Shown here piece after piece: positions 22,206 to 29,502 of a stretch of DNA of 64,000 bases (positions are counted from its first letter, which is position 1; every line of letters begins with the position of its first letter). The notes beneath the pieces were generated by a model that was given only the letters and a program-made list of their open reading frames with translations, searched no databases and was not told the origin of the DNA. The position numbers were made by a program, and so were the translations under genes. The DNA is from Haloarcula taiwanensis (GTDB lineage Archaea; Halobacteriota; Halobacteria; Halobacteriales; Haloarculaceae), in contig CP019154.1 in assembly GCA_002844335.1 (NCBI GenBank), positions 1,550,001 through 1,614,000 of the forward strand. Direction: 5' to 3'.

Positions 22206-22712
22206 TCAAACCTCAGTGTCGGTTTGTTCCTGGTTATTGGAGCAATTTACAAGATACTCGATGGTGCGAGACGTCGTCGTTTCGGCGGTGACACCTGCGC
22301 CGGTAGCAGTGACATCGAACGCGACGGTCGCGCGGTGTTGTCCGGGTGACTGGCAAGCTATTGTCGCCGGCACGTCGAACGCGTCACCAATACCGGCTGA
22401 AACACTGGTCGTCTCCATCGCGTCTGCCTTGACGGTCAGCCCATCGCCGGCAGTAACGGTGACTGTGACAGCAAAGTCGACCGGTTGTGTGAAGCGATTA
22501 CGGACAGTTACGACCGTCACTTCGTGAGCACCACTCCCCTCAAGACGAACGGTATCATCGGAGTAGAGCAGCGACATGTACGCGTCTTTGTCGGCGACGA
22601 CATTGACCGTCGCATCGCGCTCGACTGACGCCGCACTGTAACTCCCAGTTCCAACAGCGAAGCTTGCAACGACCACCAGCGCACACAGAACCAACACCCG
22701 TCTACGCATCAT
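22206..22712 (-). CDS. Secreted TasA/DUF1102-like protein
   Basis: 168 residues. A signal peptide (RRRVLVLCALVVVASFAVG) runs straight into GTGSYSAASVERDATVNVVA, the start signature of DUF1102/camelysin-type proteins that are cleaved by SipW-like signal peptidases. A beta-sandwich with VTVVTVRNRFTQPVDFAVTV follows and one Cys pair (CQSPGQ, VNCSNN) could form a disulfide. It overlaps the stop of the upstream membrane regulator by 11 bases (22702-22712), so the two are cotranscribed and likely coupled. Partners in the same locus are the second DUF1102 protein, the signal peptidase and DUF5305. It may be a structural surface or fibre protein. Confidence 0.7.
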   Translation of the reverse strand: MMRRRVLVLCALVVVASFAVGTGSYSAASVERDATVNVVADKDAYMSLLYSDDTVRLEGSGAHEVTVVTVRNRFTQPVDFAVTVTVTAGDGLTVKADAMETTSVSAGIGDAFDVPATIACQSPGQHRATVAFDVTATGAGVTAETTTSRTIEYLVNCSNNQEQTDTEV

Positions 22713-23349
22713 CTACCTCCGGTGGAACGGCGTTCGAACCGATACGCATCTGGCGTGAGAGGACGTAGTGACACGCTGATGAGACGGTAAACACAGCGAT
22801 CAGGAACACAGTCCACCCAACGAACGGGACAGCCGCGAACGGCTTGATACCCGCGTAGGCTAGCGATGTAAGGACGATTCCGATACTGCTGAGGCCCACG
22901 TAATAAAGACTCCAAGGAATATCGTAGCGGTCGACGAGTTCGAGATATATGTCGAGGTCGGCTGCGGACTCGGTGAGTCGCACGTCCCCTTCCCGCTGGT
23001 CAAACTCTATAACGCCCATATCAGCCATTTTAGGCAGATGAAACTGCTGGAGTGAGGTGTACACAGTCTTGCGCTCACTCGCCGAGATTTCGGCCACGCT
23101 GGTCTCGTTCTCCCAAGCGGCAACTTGCTCGGCGAGATCCGAGAGCGAAGTAGGGTCTGGCGTGCCGCTCAGGAACTGAATAGCATATCGTCGCCGCCGA
23201 TTACTGAGCATCTCAAATGCGTCGTCTCGCGACAGTTCATCCGGTTCTGTGTCCGACTCGATAGCGGTGTCCGATCCGGTCTCCGTCGAAGCATCTCCAA
23301 ATACGTTTGTAGACTGGTCACCAGCCGCCCTTGTCGATGTCTTGCTCAT
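22702..23349 (-). CDS. Winged-helix regulator with two membrane helices (DUF7344-like)
   Basis: 215 residues. A disordered acidic N-terminus (1-38) is followed by a winged-helix domain starting SRDDAFEMLSNRRRRYAIQF (near 40), with LSDLAEQVAAWE and ASERKTVYTSLQQFHLPKM as the helix pair and GVIEFDQREGDVRLT as the wing. Two hydrophobic helices follow (SLYYVGLSSIGIVLTSLAYA; FVGWTVFLIAVFTVSSACH). The fold is ArsR-like and common in haloarchaea. Membrane attachment suggests it senses envelope state and represses or activates at the membrane. It is cotranscribed with the TasA-like gene and divergent from the DUF1102/SipW operon, which is the natural target. Confidence 0.8.
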   Translation of the reverse strand: MSKTSTRAAGDQSTNVFGDASTETGSDTAIESDTEPDELSRDDAFEMLSNRRRRYAIQFLSGTPDPTSLSDLAEQVAAWENETSVAEISASERKTVYTSLQQFHLPKMADMGVIEFDQREGDVRLTESAADLDIYLELVDRYDIPWSLYYVGLSSIGIVLTSLAYAGIKPFAAVPFVGWTVFLIAVFTVSSACHYVLSRQMRIGSNAVPPEVDDA

Positions 23350-23767
23350 ATTATCCCCAGCCCCTTGCTTAGATACCGGTCGTTGCCGACGACACGACCA
23401 TGTCGTCTAAGCATTACTTTTCATGTTATGTTATAATATTATCGACTGTTTACGTATTAGTCGTCGTTTATACTTTGATACGTACAGTGACGAGTGGTAA
23501 ATTGGCAGGGTTTGTCGTGTGATCTCCCGCAAATGGCAATGTAAAACATCTAAATACCGCTATAACGGTTTGCTCTCTCAAACACAGGGTAGAAGAGACT
23601 GTATAACACCAGCCGCTGGGTCGCAAAGACCCATATCTGTGCTTCAAACACTGCAACCCGTCCTGTCAAAGAGCGGAATACAATGCCCTTGTCAGTGGTT
23701 GCATCAACTGTCACGTCCGGCCCACGACACGTGGGGGGTGGGCGTGCACGAACAAGGTGCAAAACTG
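23350..23767. other. Divergent control region of the SipW/TasA-like locus
   Basis: 418 bases. 23414-23460 is very AT-rich (TTATGTTATAATATTATCG) and suits TATA boxes for the regulator gene. 23366-23413 holds an inverted repeat. 23519-23767 is open in frame with the DUF1102 gene but reads as non-protein and precedes the signal peptide, so I treat it as a long 5' leader. Confidence 0.45.
23366..23413. promoter_or_regulatory. Inverted repeat TGCTTAGA / TCTAAGCA, possible operator or leader stem
   Basis: Perfect 8-bp arms at 23366-23373 and 23406-23413 are 32 bases apart, with partly complementary inner sequence (CGGTCGT, ACACGACC). It lies between the AT-rich promoter and ATG 23349 of the membrane regulator, so it could bind the regulator dimer or fold in the mRNA leader. 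Confidence 0.4.
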
Positions 23768-24367
23768 ATGCAACGACGCAAATTCCTGATCGGTTTAGGA
23801 TCGCTCGCGGCTGGTACAGCTGCTGCAACTGGGACTGGTGCGTTCAGCACCGTTCAAGCATCTCGTAACTTTACTGTGGGCACCACAGGTGACGCAAGTG
23901 CAGAGTTAGCACTTGAAGGAGCCAACAACGAGTATGTGACCGATGATGGGGTGGATGGTGAACTCGAAATTACTTTCGACAATCTCAACCCGGATGCAGT
24001 TACGGGTGTCAACGAACTATTCACAATCAAAAACAACGCCGATCACTCGGTAGAGGTCTGGGGAGATCCGGATGGTCCACATGCAGATAAGGTCGTCTTC
24101 GTCCGTAACGGGTACACGAATGATTCACAGGCGACGCTTCGACAATCTGATCCCCCGTCAATTAACGCTGAAATACTTGATGCAGAAGATGAAAACGGCG
24201 CTGTTGCATACACCAGCGGGACAGTCGGAAAGAATTCTGGTGGCCGGATAGAATTTGGTCCCGGTAAGCAATGGTCTTTTGCCATGATTGTTGATACGCG
24301 AGGTATCGACCCTAACGAGGAAATCCTTGACAGTGTCACTGTGTTCGCAGACAATTTTGACTCCTGA
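23768..24367 (+). CDS. DUF1102/TasA-like secreted protein with twin-arginine start
   Basis: 199 residues from ATG 23768 (MQRRKFLIGLGSLAAG). The RRKFLIG motif and Ala-rich segment suggest Tat export, as is common for folded haloarchaeal proteins. The mature start GTGAFSTVQASRNFTVGTTG matches the start of the 22206-22712 product. A beta-sandwich then carries FTIKNNADHSVEVWGDP and a C-terminal VFADNFDS. DUF1102 proteins occur next to SipW-type peptidases, which probably cleave after TGA or SFS. The gene is followed by signal peptidase and DUF5305 genes in the same direction. The role may be a fibre or matrix subunit, by analogy with bacterial TasA. Confidence 0.8.
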   Translation: MQRRKFLIGLGSLAAGTAAATGTGAFSTVQASRNFTVGTTGDASAELALEGANNEYVTDDGVDGELEITFDNLNPDAVTGVNELFTIKNNADHSVEVWGDPDGPHADKVVFVRNGYTNDSQATLRQSDPPSINAEILDAEDENGAVAYTSGTVGKNSGGRIEFGPGKQWSFAMIVDTRGIDPNEEILDSVTVFADNFDS

Positions 24368-24458
24368 GACCGCTCTCAGATAGCTGATTATTGGACCTCT
24401 TCACCTCAGTGACCGAAACTTTCGATGTAGTACTTGCCGATCACTGTCTAGCCACCAA

Positions 24459-24466
24459 TTTATTAA
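24459..24466 (+). promoter_or_regulatory. TATA box of the signal peptidase gene
   Basis: TTTATTAA is centred 27 bases before GTG 24490, which supports GTG rather than ATG 24496 as the first codon and gives this gene its own promoter. Confidence 0.55.
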
Positions 24467-24489
24467 TGTTCCTTTAGAGATAAAGCATA

Positions 24490-25647
24490 GTGTCAATGGA
24501 TCGGCTAAAAAAGTGGTTGGAGACCGCGCTTGAATCGGGGGTGATTATATTTCTCATCGCGATGGTACTCGGCCAGATACTGGGCCAACCCGTCCTCCTG
24601 GGATTTGTCACGACCGGCAGCATGCAACCGACGCTGGAACCGGGCGACGGGTTCGTCGCGATCCCCGCGGACCTCGCTGGCTCCGTTGAAGAAGGGGACG
24701 TTGTTACGTTCCGGGCCGAGGAAATCCAAGGGGGTGGACTGACAACTCACCGGGTCGTCGACAATACTGACCGCGGATACATAACACGCGGTGACAACAA
24801 TCCCTTCACCGATCAAGATAGCGACGAGCCCCCTGTAACCAACGCACAGATTGTCGCTGTCGCCTGGCAACCAGGTGGGGAAGTTGTTGCAGTTCCGGGA
24901 GTGGGGACACTCGTCAACGGAGTCCGGAATGGCCTGTCGTGGGTACAGCAACGAGCGGCATCGATATTTGGAGTGCGTTCGCTGCTGGGGACACAAGGGC
25001 TGGCATACTTGCTTCTCGGAGTCTCAGTCGGTGCGTACGTGCTCGACTTCGTGTTGAGTGGGAACCGTGATCGTGGCCGACGGGACAGCTCACGGGACAC
25101 GGGGACGAGCGTCAGGCTACTGATCGGAATCTTCGCAGCGGCGATAGTGTTGTCAGCAACAGCGACGATGGTCGCGCCGGCGGGCCCACAGGAGTTCGGC
25201 GTGGTCAGTGCTGAATTCGACTCACCGGGACCGCGCGTCATCGAACAGGGAACGACGGAGTCAACGCAGTATCGGCTCGGTAACGGTGGGTACGTTCCTG
25301 TCGTGACATATTTTGACCCTGCAACAGATGGCATCGCTGTCGAACCAAACGAGACGGTGATACCAGCCCGTTCGACAGTCAATGCGACGCTGTCGCTGAC
25401 AGCACCGCCAGAGAGGGGCTATTACCGAAAGTTCGTTGTTGAGCACCGATACCTCCTGATCCTCCCACAGTCGACGATCCGATCGCTGTATCTCGTCCAT
25501 CCGTGGCTCCCGATTATTACCATCGACGCGCTTCTCGGAGGCGCGTTTTACGTGCTCGGGACGGTGCTTGTCGACACCGGCCGTGTCAGGTCGCGGTCTC
25601 GCGATAGTCCATCCAAAATTCGTCGGCTCCTTACGCGGTTGAGATAG
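24490..25647 (+). CDS. Signal peptidase I, SipW/ER type, with extra C-terminal domain
   Basis: 385 residues. An N-terminal helix (VIIFLIAMVLGQILG) precedes the catalytic core: Ser44 in TTGSMQPTL, His87 in LTTHRVVD (in place of the bacterial Lys) and Asp102 in ITRGDNNPF. This Ser/His/Asp set is that of archaeal and SipW-type enzymes, which cleave signal peptides outside the membrane. Beyond residue about 150 lie a second helix (LAYLLLGVSVGAYVLDFVL), another near 210, an Ig-like segment with EQGTTESTQYRLGNGGYVPV, and a final helix. That is about 200 residues more than a minimal SipW, possibly to hold its substrates. It is followed after 48 bases by DUF5305. Confidence 0.88.
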   Translation: MSMDRLKKWLETALESGVIIFLIAMVLGQILGQPVLLGFVTTGSMQPTLEPGDGFVAIPADLAGSVEEGDVVTFRAEEIQGGGLTTHRVVDNTDRGYITRGDNNPFTDQDSDEPPVTNAQIVAVAWQPGGEVVAVPGVGTLVNGVRNGLSWVQQRAASIFGVRSLLGTQGLAYLLLGVSVGAYVLDFVLSGNRDRGRRDSSRDTGTSVRLLIGIFAAAIVLSATATMVAPAGPQEFGVVSAEFDSPGPRVIEQGTTESTQYRLGNGGYVPVVTYFDPATDGIAVEPNETVIPARSTVNATLSLTAPPERGYYRKFVVEHRYLLILPQSTIRSLYLVHPWLPIITIDALLGGAFYVLGTVLVDTGRVRSRSRDSPSKIRRLLTRLR

Positions 25648-25695
25648 TGTTATAACCCAAATAATTACCAATAAGACTCCATTATATCTTACACA

Positions 25696-26892
25696 ATGGA
25701 TGGTGGGGGCCGGACAATCAGACAGGACATCGCTGCTAATTACGTGTTAGTGGTTCTCTGCGTGGTACTTATAGGGGCCGTCGGTGGCTATCTCACGTAC
25801 ACAACACACGTCGAACCGGGAACCACGACGGAGATCAAGGAGGTTTCGTCCTGGCAATCGAGCGGGGCGTTCTCCCATCAGGCCACGGTCGTCAACGGAA
25901 CGACCGCGTTCGACGAGGGGACAGTCCTGCAAAACCGATCCGTGTACTTCCGGGGGGTGAGCCCAAAGCTGAACGGCACGTTCAGGTATGCGTACGAGGC
26001 CCAGGAAGGGAACCTTACGACAGAGACGACAGTGTTACTCAAGTATCGCTCTGTTGAACCGGCCGATGACGGCAACGGGACGACGTACTGGGACGTTACC
26101 CGCCCAGTCGCGCAGGATCGAACCGAGGCGCTGAGACCAACCGAGCGCGCGACGGTGCCCTTCTCCACGAACGCAAGCGCGGCCATTGAGCGGGCACGGC
26201 GTATTGACGCGGAGCATGGCAACACGCCCGGGCAACTCGAAATCGCGTTCATCGCCCGCGTAGACGTGTCGGGGACGCGAAACGGCCAGCGAGTCGACAC
26301 CACAAACACGTACCGACTCCCCATCATCCCCGGTGACAGCGTCTACCGAGTGGCAGACCCCGGCGTCGATACTGCGTCGGGGTCACAGACTGAACAGGTA
26401 TCTGTCCTCGTAGAGTACGGGGCCCTTCGCCGTGTGGGCAGTCCGCTGCTACTCTTGCTCGCAGTCGGTTCACTGCTTGGCTTGCTGTATGCCCGCCAAA
26501 CTGGCCGCCTGTCAGTTTCCGAGGCCGAGCGCCGGTGGGCTGATTATCGAACAGCCAGAGCAGAGTACGATGATTGGATCACGATTGGTCACCTGCCGTC
26601 AGATACTGATAAGATGCCGGCGATAACGGTCGATAGTCTTGAGGGACTGGTTGACGTAGCGATCGATACGAACAACCGCGTCATTGAGAATGTATCGTGT
26701 AACCAATACGTCGTGTTCGTTGACGACCGTTTGTATCGGTATGAGCCACCGTTAGAACCCACCGCCAAAGGTGATGACGAACGTGCCAGCGACGAACAAG
26801 GTAGTTCAACTGACCAAACGAAGGATGGGATGACGGTGCCCTCACAGTTACAGGCAAATACGAACCATTCTGATAACCCGAAAGACCACTGA
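25696..26892 (+). CDS. DUF5305 family membrane-anchored protein
   Basis: 398 residues. An N-terminal helix (NYVLVVLCVVLIGAVGGYLT) is followed by an extracytoplasmic beta-rich domain (about 45-235) with VNGTTAFDEGTVLQNRSVYF and many Thr/Asn, a second helix near 240-262 (SPLLLLLAVGSLLGLLYAR), and a cytoplasmic domain with VDSLEGLVDVAIDTNNRVIE and a disordered acidic tail. This is the layout of haloarchaeal DUF5305 proteins, which accompany SipW-type peptidases. It may help fold, anchor or present the TasA-like proteins. The biochemical role is unknown. Confidence 0.8.
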   Translation: MDGGGRTIRQDIAANYVLVVLCVVLIGAVGGYLTYTTHVEPGTTTEIKEVSSWQSSGAFSHQATVVNGTTAFDEGTVLQNRSVYFRGVSPKLNGTFRYAYEAQEGNLTTETTVLLKYRSVEPADDGNGTTYWDVTRPVAQDRTEALRPTERATVPFSTNASAAIERARRIDAEHGNTPGQLEIAFIARVDVSGTRNGQRVDTTNTYRLPIIPGDSVYRVADPGVDTASGSQTEQVSVLVEYGALRRVGSPLLLLLAVGSLLGLLYARQTGRLSVSEAERRWADYRTARAEYDDWITIGHLPSDTDKMPAITVDSLEGLVDVAIDTNNRVIENVSCNQYVVFVDDRLYRYEPPLEPTAKGDDERASDEQGSSTDQTKDGMTVPSQLQANTNHSDNPKDH

Positions 26893-28507: not shown

Positions 28508-29502
28508 GTGTGTGTGTCTCGTGAGGCTCACTTCGAGGCACAGGCAAACTATATCTCGTTTCAGCAGGCGTACGTTGACTGCTCCGATTATCAGACCGAC
28601 GCAAAGGCAAGCCGAGAGATGGCACGCAAACTGGTGGCGAGCCTCGACGCGGATATCGACGTCCCGCGTGTCGGAATCGGAGCCGCCGACTACCGTGACA
28701 TCACTTGGGACCTGCTTGCGGAGTACGATATTAACTCACTGGTCGTCATTCTCGATGAAATCGACAAGTTAGACGACGACGAGCTGTTACGCAGCCTCTC
28801 GCAGGCTCGAGAGAGCGGGAAGGCAGAGACACACGTCGGCGCCATCTGCATCAGCAACAGGATCGAATATCGCGAGCAGTTGAGCGAACGCATCGACTCC
28901 AGTCTTCAGGAGAACGAACTCGTCTTTGACCCCTACGATGCCGGCCAGTTACGGCGATCCTCGAAAACCGAATGGATGCCTTCGAACCAGACGTGTTGGA
29001 GCCCGACGTGATCCCGAAGGTCGCGGCCCTCTCAGCCAAGGAACACGGGGATGCACGGAAAGCGATCGATACGCTATACGAAGCTGGTCGTCTCGCTGAG
29101 AAACAGGGGACAGGAACAGTCACAGTCTCACATGTCGATGACGCCGTCCAGCGAGCAGAAGTGAACCGTTTCGAGAAACTCGTTCGTGGGACGACGCCAC
29201 ATATGAAATACATTCTCCGAGCGCAGGCGCTACTTACTGTCGACAACCCAGAACAGGAGGCGTTTCGAACCCATCAGATATACACGCTCTATCTGAAGGT
29301 CGCGGAGCAGGCTGGAGCGGATCCGCTCTCCGAGGATCGCGTGTACCGGCTGCTGAAAGAACAGTCGTTTCTCGGGGTGACTGAGTCGAATCACACAGGG
29401 GGTGGACAGGGTGAAGGGAGCTACCTGGAACATCGACTGCTTCGGGATCCAGAGGTCGTCATTCAGGCCATTGATAGCTCAACGAAGGGCGGGGACCCAT
29501 GA
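28508..29502 (+). pseudogene. Orc1/Cdc6 replication initiator, truncated and frameshifted
   Basis: 28508-28950 encodes YVDCSDYQTDAKASREMA, VGIGAADYRDITWDLL, Walker B VVILDEIDKLDDDEL and SNRIEYREQLSERIDSSLQ, all typical of haloarchaeal Orc1/Cdc6 AAA+ domains. After FDPYDAGQLR near 28950 the reading jumps frame: AILENRMDAFEPDVLEPDV and EHGDARKAIDTLYEAGRLAE continue to the winged helix with YRLLKEQSFLGVTES and HTGGGQGEGSYLEHRLL, ending at 29502. One base is missing near 28951. The N-terminal 100 or so residues, including Walker A, are absent, so no ATP can be bound. It is not functional as an initiator. No obvious origin repeats flank it. Confidence 0.88.

Follow-up and report, generated by a model that had tools for sequence, protein, structure and literature searches.

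A compact, divergent and probably Tat-fimbria-like locus of Haloarcula taiwanensis

The closest described system is that of the recently described haloarchaeal Tat-fimbriae, or tafi (Galeva et al. 2025, iScience 28:111793, here as cited in PMC12687288). NCBIfam models exist for the Tat-fimbria proteins TafA, TafC, TafE, and TafF, and the PDB holds a tafi pilus of Natrinema sp. J7-2 (9P0A), for which we found no descriptive publication. More distant systems comprise the Bacillus subtilis fibre, in which TapA, the initiator of TasA, has an N-terminal strand in common with the pilin and is cut by SipW (PMC9674648), and the donor-strand filaments of archaea, namely, the bundling pili (7UEG) and the Sulfolobus thread (7PNB) (PMC9715654).

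We analysed a window of 64,000 nucleotides from Haloarcula taiwanensis (contig CP019154.1, positions 1,550,001 to 1,614,000) and describe here a group of five genes lying in it (Table 1). The locus is of a known kind, tafi/Taf, and not an unnamed TasA system. In our judgement it probably represents a compact, divergent Tat-fimbria (tafi-like) locus that would operate by the mechanism proposed below.

Table 1. Features of the locus (positions are those of the window)
Feature	Position	Strand	Description
P0001	22206..22712	-	168-aa secreted TafC-N-like accessory protein; GTGSYS motif; Ig/PapD-like sandwich (model)
P0002, DUF7344 winged helix	22702..23349	-	two C-terminal membrane helices (hydropathy); presumed regulator
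Candidate operator/promoter of P0003	23643..23685	+	TTCAAAC-N16-TCAAAGAG..TACAATG; 22 bp between repeats
P0003	23768..24367	+	199-aa tafi-like pilin, twin-arginine signal
P0004, SipW-like S26 signal peptidase	24490..25647	+	extended at the C-terminus by a membrane/ectodomain part; ATG at 24496 as another possible start
P0005, DUF5305 membrane protein	25696..26892	+	extracytoplasmic domain between two membrane helices

Genes of the locus and their family and fold matches

All five open reading frames were intact, and the catalytic residues were kept. P0002 matched Pfam DUF7344 (7e-30), and P0005, placed behind the peptidase gene as the first-pass annotation had it, matched Pfam DUF5305 (3.8e-51). 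P0004 passed the cut-off of the archaeal signal peptidase model TIGR02228 narrowly (4e-14; 52.8 bits versus 51.85) and stayed far below that of the Bacillus SipW equivalog NF046067 (36.6 of 190 bits). Its catalytic residues are Ser44, His87, and Asp102 when counted from the GTG start and residues 42, 85, and 100 when counted from the ATG six bases later. With the Ser, the His, a conserved Asp, and TIGR02228 over its cut-off, P0004 fits a SipW or ER-type (Ser-His) signal peptidase. About 200 residues, including three more hydrophobic segments, follow the catalytic part. Both the catalytic residues and this extra length had been recognized in the first-pass annotation; the extension turned out to be normal for the family, since near-whole-length matches to P0004 were obtained in most of the genomes with such a peptidase (221 of the 292 sampled across the class, in 63 of 77 genera). 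The same distribution indicates that the system is widespread.

The P0002 and P0001 genes overlap by 11 bases and lie on the same strand, P0002 being divergent from P0003. The overlap and the two membrane helices of the winged-helix protein had thus been read correctly; the divergence described for its gene holds against P0003 and not against the overlapping P0001. The gap between P0003 and the peptidase gene is only 122 bases, and no TafF or TafF-like gene was found between or beside the five genes. The flanking genes P0006 and P0007 were considered as members of the locus and rejected, as no homologues of either lay near any related cluster.

The two secreted proteins have a common mature start, GTGSYSAASVERDATVNV in P0001 and GTGAFSTVQASRNFTVGT in P0003, which had been pointed out before. 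The shared GTG(A/S)(F/Y)S..(A/V)(S/E)R motif takes in the last residues of the signal peptide together with the opening strand of the mature protein, and related pilins keep it almost unchanged. G24, A25, and R33 were invariant across 47 pilin relatives and the consensus was identical in the TafC-like set, so the motif is family-wide and no chance likeness. The signal of P0003 is of the Tat type (twin arginine RRKFL, low hydropathy), unlike that of Bacillus TasA, so that the earlier likening of the protein to TasA fails on this point. That of P0001, with a hydropathy of 3.12, is far more hydrophobic and Sec-like. Among relatives, the TafC-like signal was very hydrophobic and Sec-like in Haloarcula and Halapricum (L012 1250-1765, L013 3497-4267) and twin-arginine, Tat-like in the Halorubrum genes (e.g., L021 205-1008), the cleavage motif being the same in all of them.

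We then compared the secreted proteins with known families and folds. P0003 scored below the NCBIfam equivalog cut-offs of TafE (2.6e-19, 69.6 of 155 bits) and TafA (8e-9, 35.8 of 190 bits), and P0001 matched TafC in its N-terminal part only, again below the cut-off (5e-8, 32 of 410 bits). In a PDB sequence search, the sole significant match was 9P0A (3.5e-11 with P0003, 4e-32 with the family profile). The AlphaFold model of P0003, built from 47 sequences, had a pLDDT of 73, low-confidence loops, and strands from residue 33 on. Its best fold match was also 9P0A (Z 8.2, rmsd 2.8, 120 residues); a Z near 8 is modest and would be weak on its own, but the sequence search had singled out this chain as well. 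The archaeal thread 7PNB (Z 7.0) and the bundling pilus 7UEG (Z 6.8, just under an unrelated ciliary protein) followed. By these best fold matches, P0003 has the beta-sandwich fold of subunits in donor-strand fibres. The model of P0001 (pLDDT 80) gave generic Ig/PapD-like matches. Since the fold matches differ, one secreted protein is pilin-like (P0003) and the other is an accessory domain (P0001). Of the two TasA-like proteins originally proposed, structure prediction therefore upheld a pilin-type fold for P0003, with 9P0A as its counterpart, and a TasA-like identity was rejected for P0001, whose matches were generic only. TasA was absent from the sequence matches and from the fold matches listed for P0003, an absence that excludes nothing. 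P0003 and the linked peptidase, DUF7344 regulator, and TafC-like gene make this a tafi-like locus in the wider sense; it is not a canonical taf locus, as TafF is missing and the equivalog cut-offs are not reached.

We counted neighbourhoods in 38 related loci, each no shorter than 11 kb. A pilin gene lay near the peptidase gene in 35 of them, a winged-helix gene in 34, and a DUF5305 gene directly after the peptidase in 32; all three were present in 31, so that the neighbourhood which the first-pass annotation had suggested looking for does recur in relatives. SipW relatives in Firmicutes also process non-fibre substrates, and the fold of P0001 is only generic Ig-like. Both points would agree with a SipW-type locus that secretes soluble or otherwise non-fibrous proteins, such as enzymes or signalling proteins, rather than a fibre. 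We hold this to be very unlikely, given that P0003 matches a solved pilus subunit in both sequence and fold and that pilin-type genes were linked in nearly all of the loci counted.

A second taf-type cluster in the genome and its candidate operator

The same genome carries a canonical taf locus (G000:C1:226-234 kb), 1.34 Mb away, composed of DUF5305, TafF, TafE, TafA, a winged helix, TafC with LamG (Laminin_G_3, 2.6e-24), and SipW. Its TafA, TafC, TafE, and TafF were all over the cut-off, and its peptidase, regulator, and DUF5305 protein are homologous to those in the window. The cluster in the window is therefore a second, divergent taf-type locus. The only TafF detected in the genome sits at the canonical locus, as does the sole detected copy of a family of rhomboid-type membrane proteins. 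A genome-wide search for a second TafF with a divergent TafF-like query, which was possibly too distant, gave none.

Four layouts (A to D) were distinguished within the genus, A being canonical taf. In layout B, genes for a TafC-like protein and a winged helix are followed divergently by those for pilin 1, pilin 2, a TafF-like protein, a rhomboid-type membrane protein, SipW, and DUF5305. Layout C is layout B without the TafF-like and membrane proteins and with one or two pilins, and layout D in addition has no DUF5305 gene close by. In the trees built from SipW and from the winged helix, the window fell in clade B with support of 100/99, its winged helix being on a long branch. The DUF5305 tree was compatible with clade B, had lower resolution, and grouped some of the canonical copies together with it. 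The five-gene set of the window was also found in Halapricum (L013) and in the type-C clusters L096 and L099, all in genomes without canonical TafF.

Pilin 2, the TafF-like protein, and the rhomboid-type membrane protein were kept in all eight other B clusters and were absent from the window copy. As the latter combines a type-C gene set with type-B ancestry, its reduction looks independent. Each of the eight lies beside mutS, and in seven of them the stretch covered also includes a thioredoxin gene (trx) on the opposite flank. The window copy lies elsewhere, and because trx (C1:2761k) and mutS (C1:175k) are far apart in this genome, a clean empty trx-mutS site could not be demonstrated in it. 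The closest mutS orthologue (G000:C1:174936-177764, outside the window) is 83% identical and has one in-frame TGA within the match, reflecting either a pseudogene or a sequencing error. Within the window, two overlapping frames at 28508-29502 correspond to pieces of Cdc6/Orc1 (the AAA part, then the lid and C-terminal domains) and are probably a frameshifted, truncated gene.

Canonical TafF was over the cut-off in 12 of 32 genomes of the genus, and a B/C-type SipW (at least 61% identity) was likewise present in 12. Both kinds of cluster occurred together only in the window genome, i.e., in 1 of 32 versus about 4.5 expected by chance with kinship ignored. This sole co-occurrence and the placement of the only TafF and the only membrane-protein copy at the canonical locus would suit an accessory subunit module, in which the pilin and the TafC-like protein are processed here and then either become part of the canonical fimbria or are anchored by it, with TafF and the rhomboid-type protease provided in trans. 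Such a division of labour seems unlikely to us: the cluster has kept its own peptidase, regulator, and operator, the same gene set stands in Halapricum and type-C genomes devoid of canonical TafF, and the identity of P0003 to TafA and TafE is low. As for the first-pass annotation of the locus as a self-contained fibre export system, the dedicated SipW-like peptidase and the membrane-anchored regulator stood, whereas the term self-contained is doubtful with three genes missing and canonical taf in the genome.

All nine B clusters carry, with minor changes, the tandem element TTCAAAC-N16-TCAAAGAG..TACTACAATG in front of the pilin gene. Among these nine, pairwise ungapped identity was 64% in the element block, a figure slightly raised by anchoring the rows on the ACAAT end, versus 38% just upstream. 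The repeats follow each other at 21 to 22 bp, or two turns of the helix, and a third copy occurs in some clusters. The repeat pair of the window is unique in the genome, and the chance expectation for it in the window was 0.01. Because it is sited between divergent genes, one of which encodes the regulator, the tandem element is a likely operator, and its conservation lends support to the presumed control of the locus by P0002.

On another reading, the locus is a decaying remnant: a taf-type cluster, made redundant by the full taf locus of the genome, would have moved, then lost three genes, and would no longer make a fibre. The loss of genes kept in all eight clade-B relatives, the long winged-helix branch, and the unique co-occurrence of both cluster kinds agree with decay. 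We nevertheless find it improbable, considering that the five reading frames are intact with their catalytic and family-invariant residues, that the promoter element is retained, and that Halapricum and the type-C clusters stably maintain this reduced set of genes. The tafi-like reading is favoured by the Taf matches, 9P0A, the canonical taf locus in the genome, the neighbourhood, the trees, the intact frames and catalytic residues, the promoter element, and the gene sets of Halapricum and type C. Against it speak the scores of P0003 and P0001 below the cut-offs, the lack of a TafF-like protein and of a second pilin, and the Z of 8.2 and pLDDT of 73. Judged from sequence, the locus is real and functional looking and very probably would work like tafi.

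Putative anchoring genes and possible pilin exchange in relatives

In the rhomboid-type membrane protein (e.g., L012 5003-5932, L056 3954-4844), H75xxxN79, G133xS135G136, and H282xxG285 were invariant in 18 of 18 relatives; these residues are the catalytic signature of rhomboid proteases. The rhombosortase model matched all 18 weakly (best 5e-5) and Pfam Rhomboid matched 4 (best 2.5e-4), while a PDB sequence search with the protein gave nothing significant. The C-terminus of most type-B TafF-like proteins is a GlyGly-type tail, consisting of ELGG and a short membrane helix. The window, type C, and type D lack both the TafF-like and the rhomboid-type gene. The two products may reasonably be regarded as a putative enzyme-substrate pair. 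Haloarchaeobius has a TafF-like gene without a rhomboid-type membrane protein nearby, so a strict dependence between them is disfavoured.

The signal peptides of the pilins follow the cluster phylogeny better than the mature domains do, as their rank correlation with SipW was 0.72 versus 0.40. Between the pilin pairs of Halorubrum salsamenti (L026 1886-3058) and Haloarcula amylovorans (L092 8238-9425), the mature pilin 1 proteins are 85% identical, compared with 54% for the peptidases of the two clusters, and the similar stretch covers both pilins with about 70% DNA identity, which points to an exchange of pilin genes between families. Mean GC3 was 0.64 for pilin genes versus 0.87 for the peptidase, the pilin value being lower in 84 of 88 cases. 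In the window, the GC3 of P0003 was 0.45 versus 0.60 to 0.66 for its cluster neighbours. Its signal is 96% identical to that of one B pilin 1, and its mature domain is 30 to 35% identical to all B pilin 1 proteins and 44% to that of Haloarchaeobius. For the weaker cases of pilin exchange, fast divergence is an alternative.

We tentatively propose that haloarchaeal fimbria loci are modular, with a fixed core (peptidase, membrane-anchored regulator, DUF5305, and 22-bp tandem operator), exchangeable pilins, and an anchoring module that can be detached, in which a TafF-like protein bearing a GlyGly-type tail is joined by its own rhombosortase-like protease. The window would then hold the core alone, possibly sharing the canonical anchor.

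Proposed mechanism and comparison with known fibre systems

The family relations, the fold match of P0003, the clade, the gene losses, and the conserved promoter element are computed results, and we infer from them how a tafi-like locus of this composition could function. P0003 would be exported folded through Tat, and P0004 would cut its signal near GTG|AFS. The N-terminal strand thus freed could be donated to the next subunit, giving a thin fibre. P0001, with the same N-terminal strand and an Ig/PapD-like body, would probably start, cap, or adapt the fibre, a role proposed because TapA likewise has its N-terminal strand in common with the pilin TasA. The DUF5305 protein may be a membrane accessory, perhaps in assembly or anchoring, and the DUF7344 winged helix would control the divergent pilin promoter, presumably by binding the 22-bp tandem element. 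The locus probably arose from an eight-gene cluster by loss of the second pilin, the TafF-like anchor, and the rhomboid-type protease. It would either work as a minimal set of pilin, initiator, and peptidase or draw on the cell's canonical taf locus for what it lacks.

New here are the reduced variant, the candidate operator, the signs of pilin exchange, and the TafF/rhombosortase-like pair in relatives. The relatives show which tafi parts can be lost and which stay together, and they contain the likely anchor/rhombosortase pair. With tafi so recently described, a natural minimal version and a full one in one cell allow a clean test of what gene set is enough to build a fibre, and the single-copy candidate operator is on offer for a membrane-anchored archaeal regulator. 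The apparent exchange of pilins among distant haloarchaea, with the export machinery fixed, would make surface-fibre variation in archaea directly testable.

Like canonical taf and 9P0A, the locus has a Tat-type signal that terminates in the G(T/S)GAF motif, and it resembles them in pilin sequence and fold. It also shares with canonical taf a DUF7344 winged helix and the TafC-like partner cotranscribed with it, a SipW-like peptidase with a C-terminal extension, and DUF5305. It differs in that TafF is missing, the TafC-like protein has no LamG, there is a single pilin in place of TafA and TafE, none of the Taf models reaches its cut-off, and gene order and orientation are not the same. The type-B Haloarcula clusters (e.g., H. 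amylovorans L012/L092 and Halomicroarcula rubra L011/L090) have the same peptidase and regulator clade, order, divergent promoter, and operator element, but they keep pilin 2, the TafF-like anchor, and the rhomboid-type protease and adjoin mutS. The 7UEG and 7PNB filaments belong to other archaeal classes and show 2 to 10% sequence identity to P0003. Like tapA-sipW-tasA of B. subtilis, the locus combines a single pilin with a single minor partner and a SipW peptidase of their own, whereas the Bacillus pilin is a Sec rather than a Tat substrate and its operon has neither DUF5305 nor a membrane winged helix.
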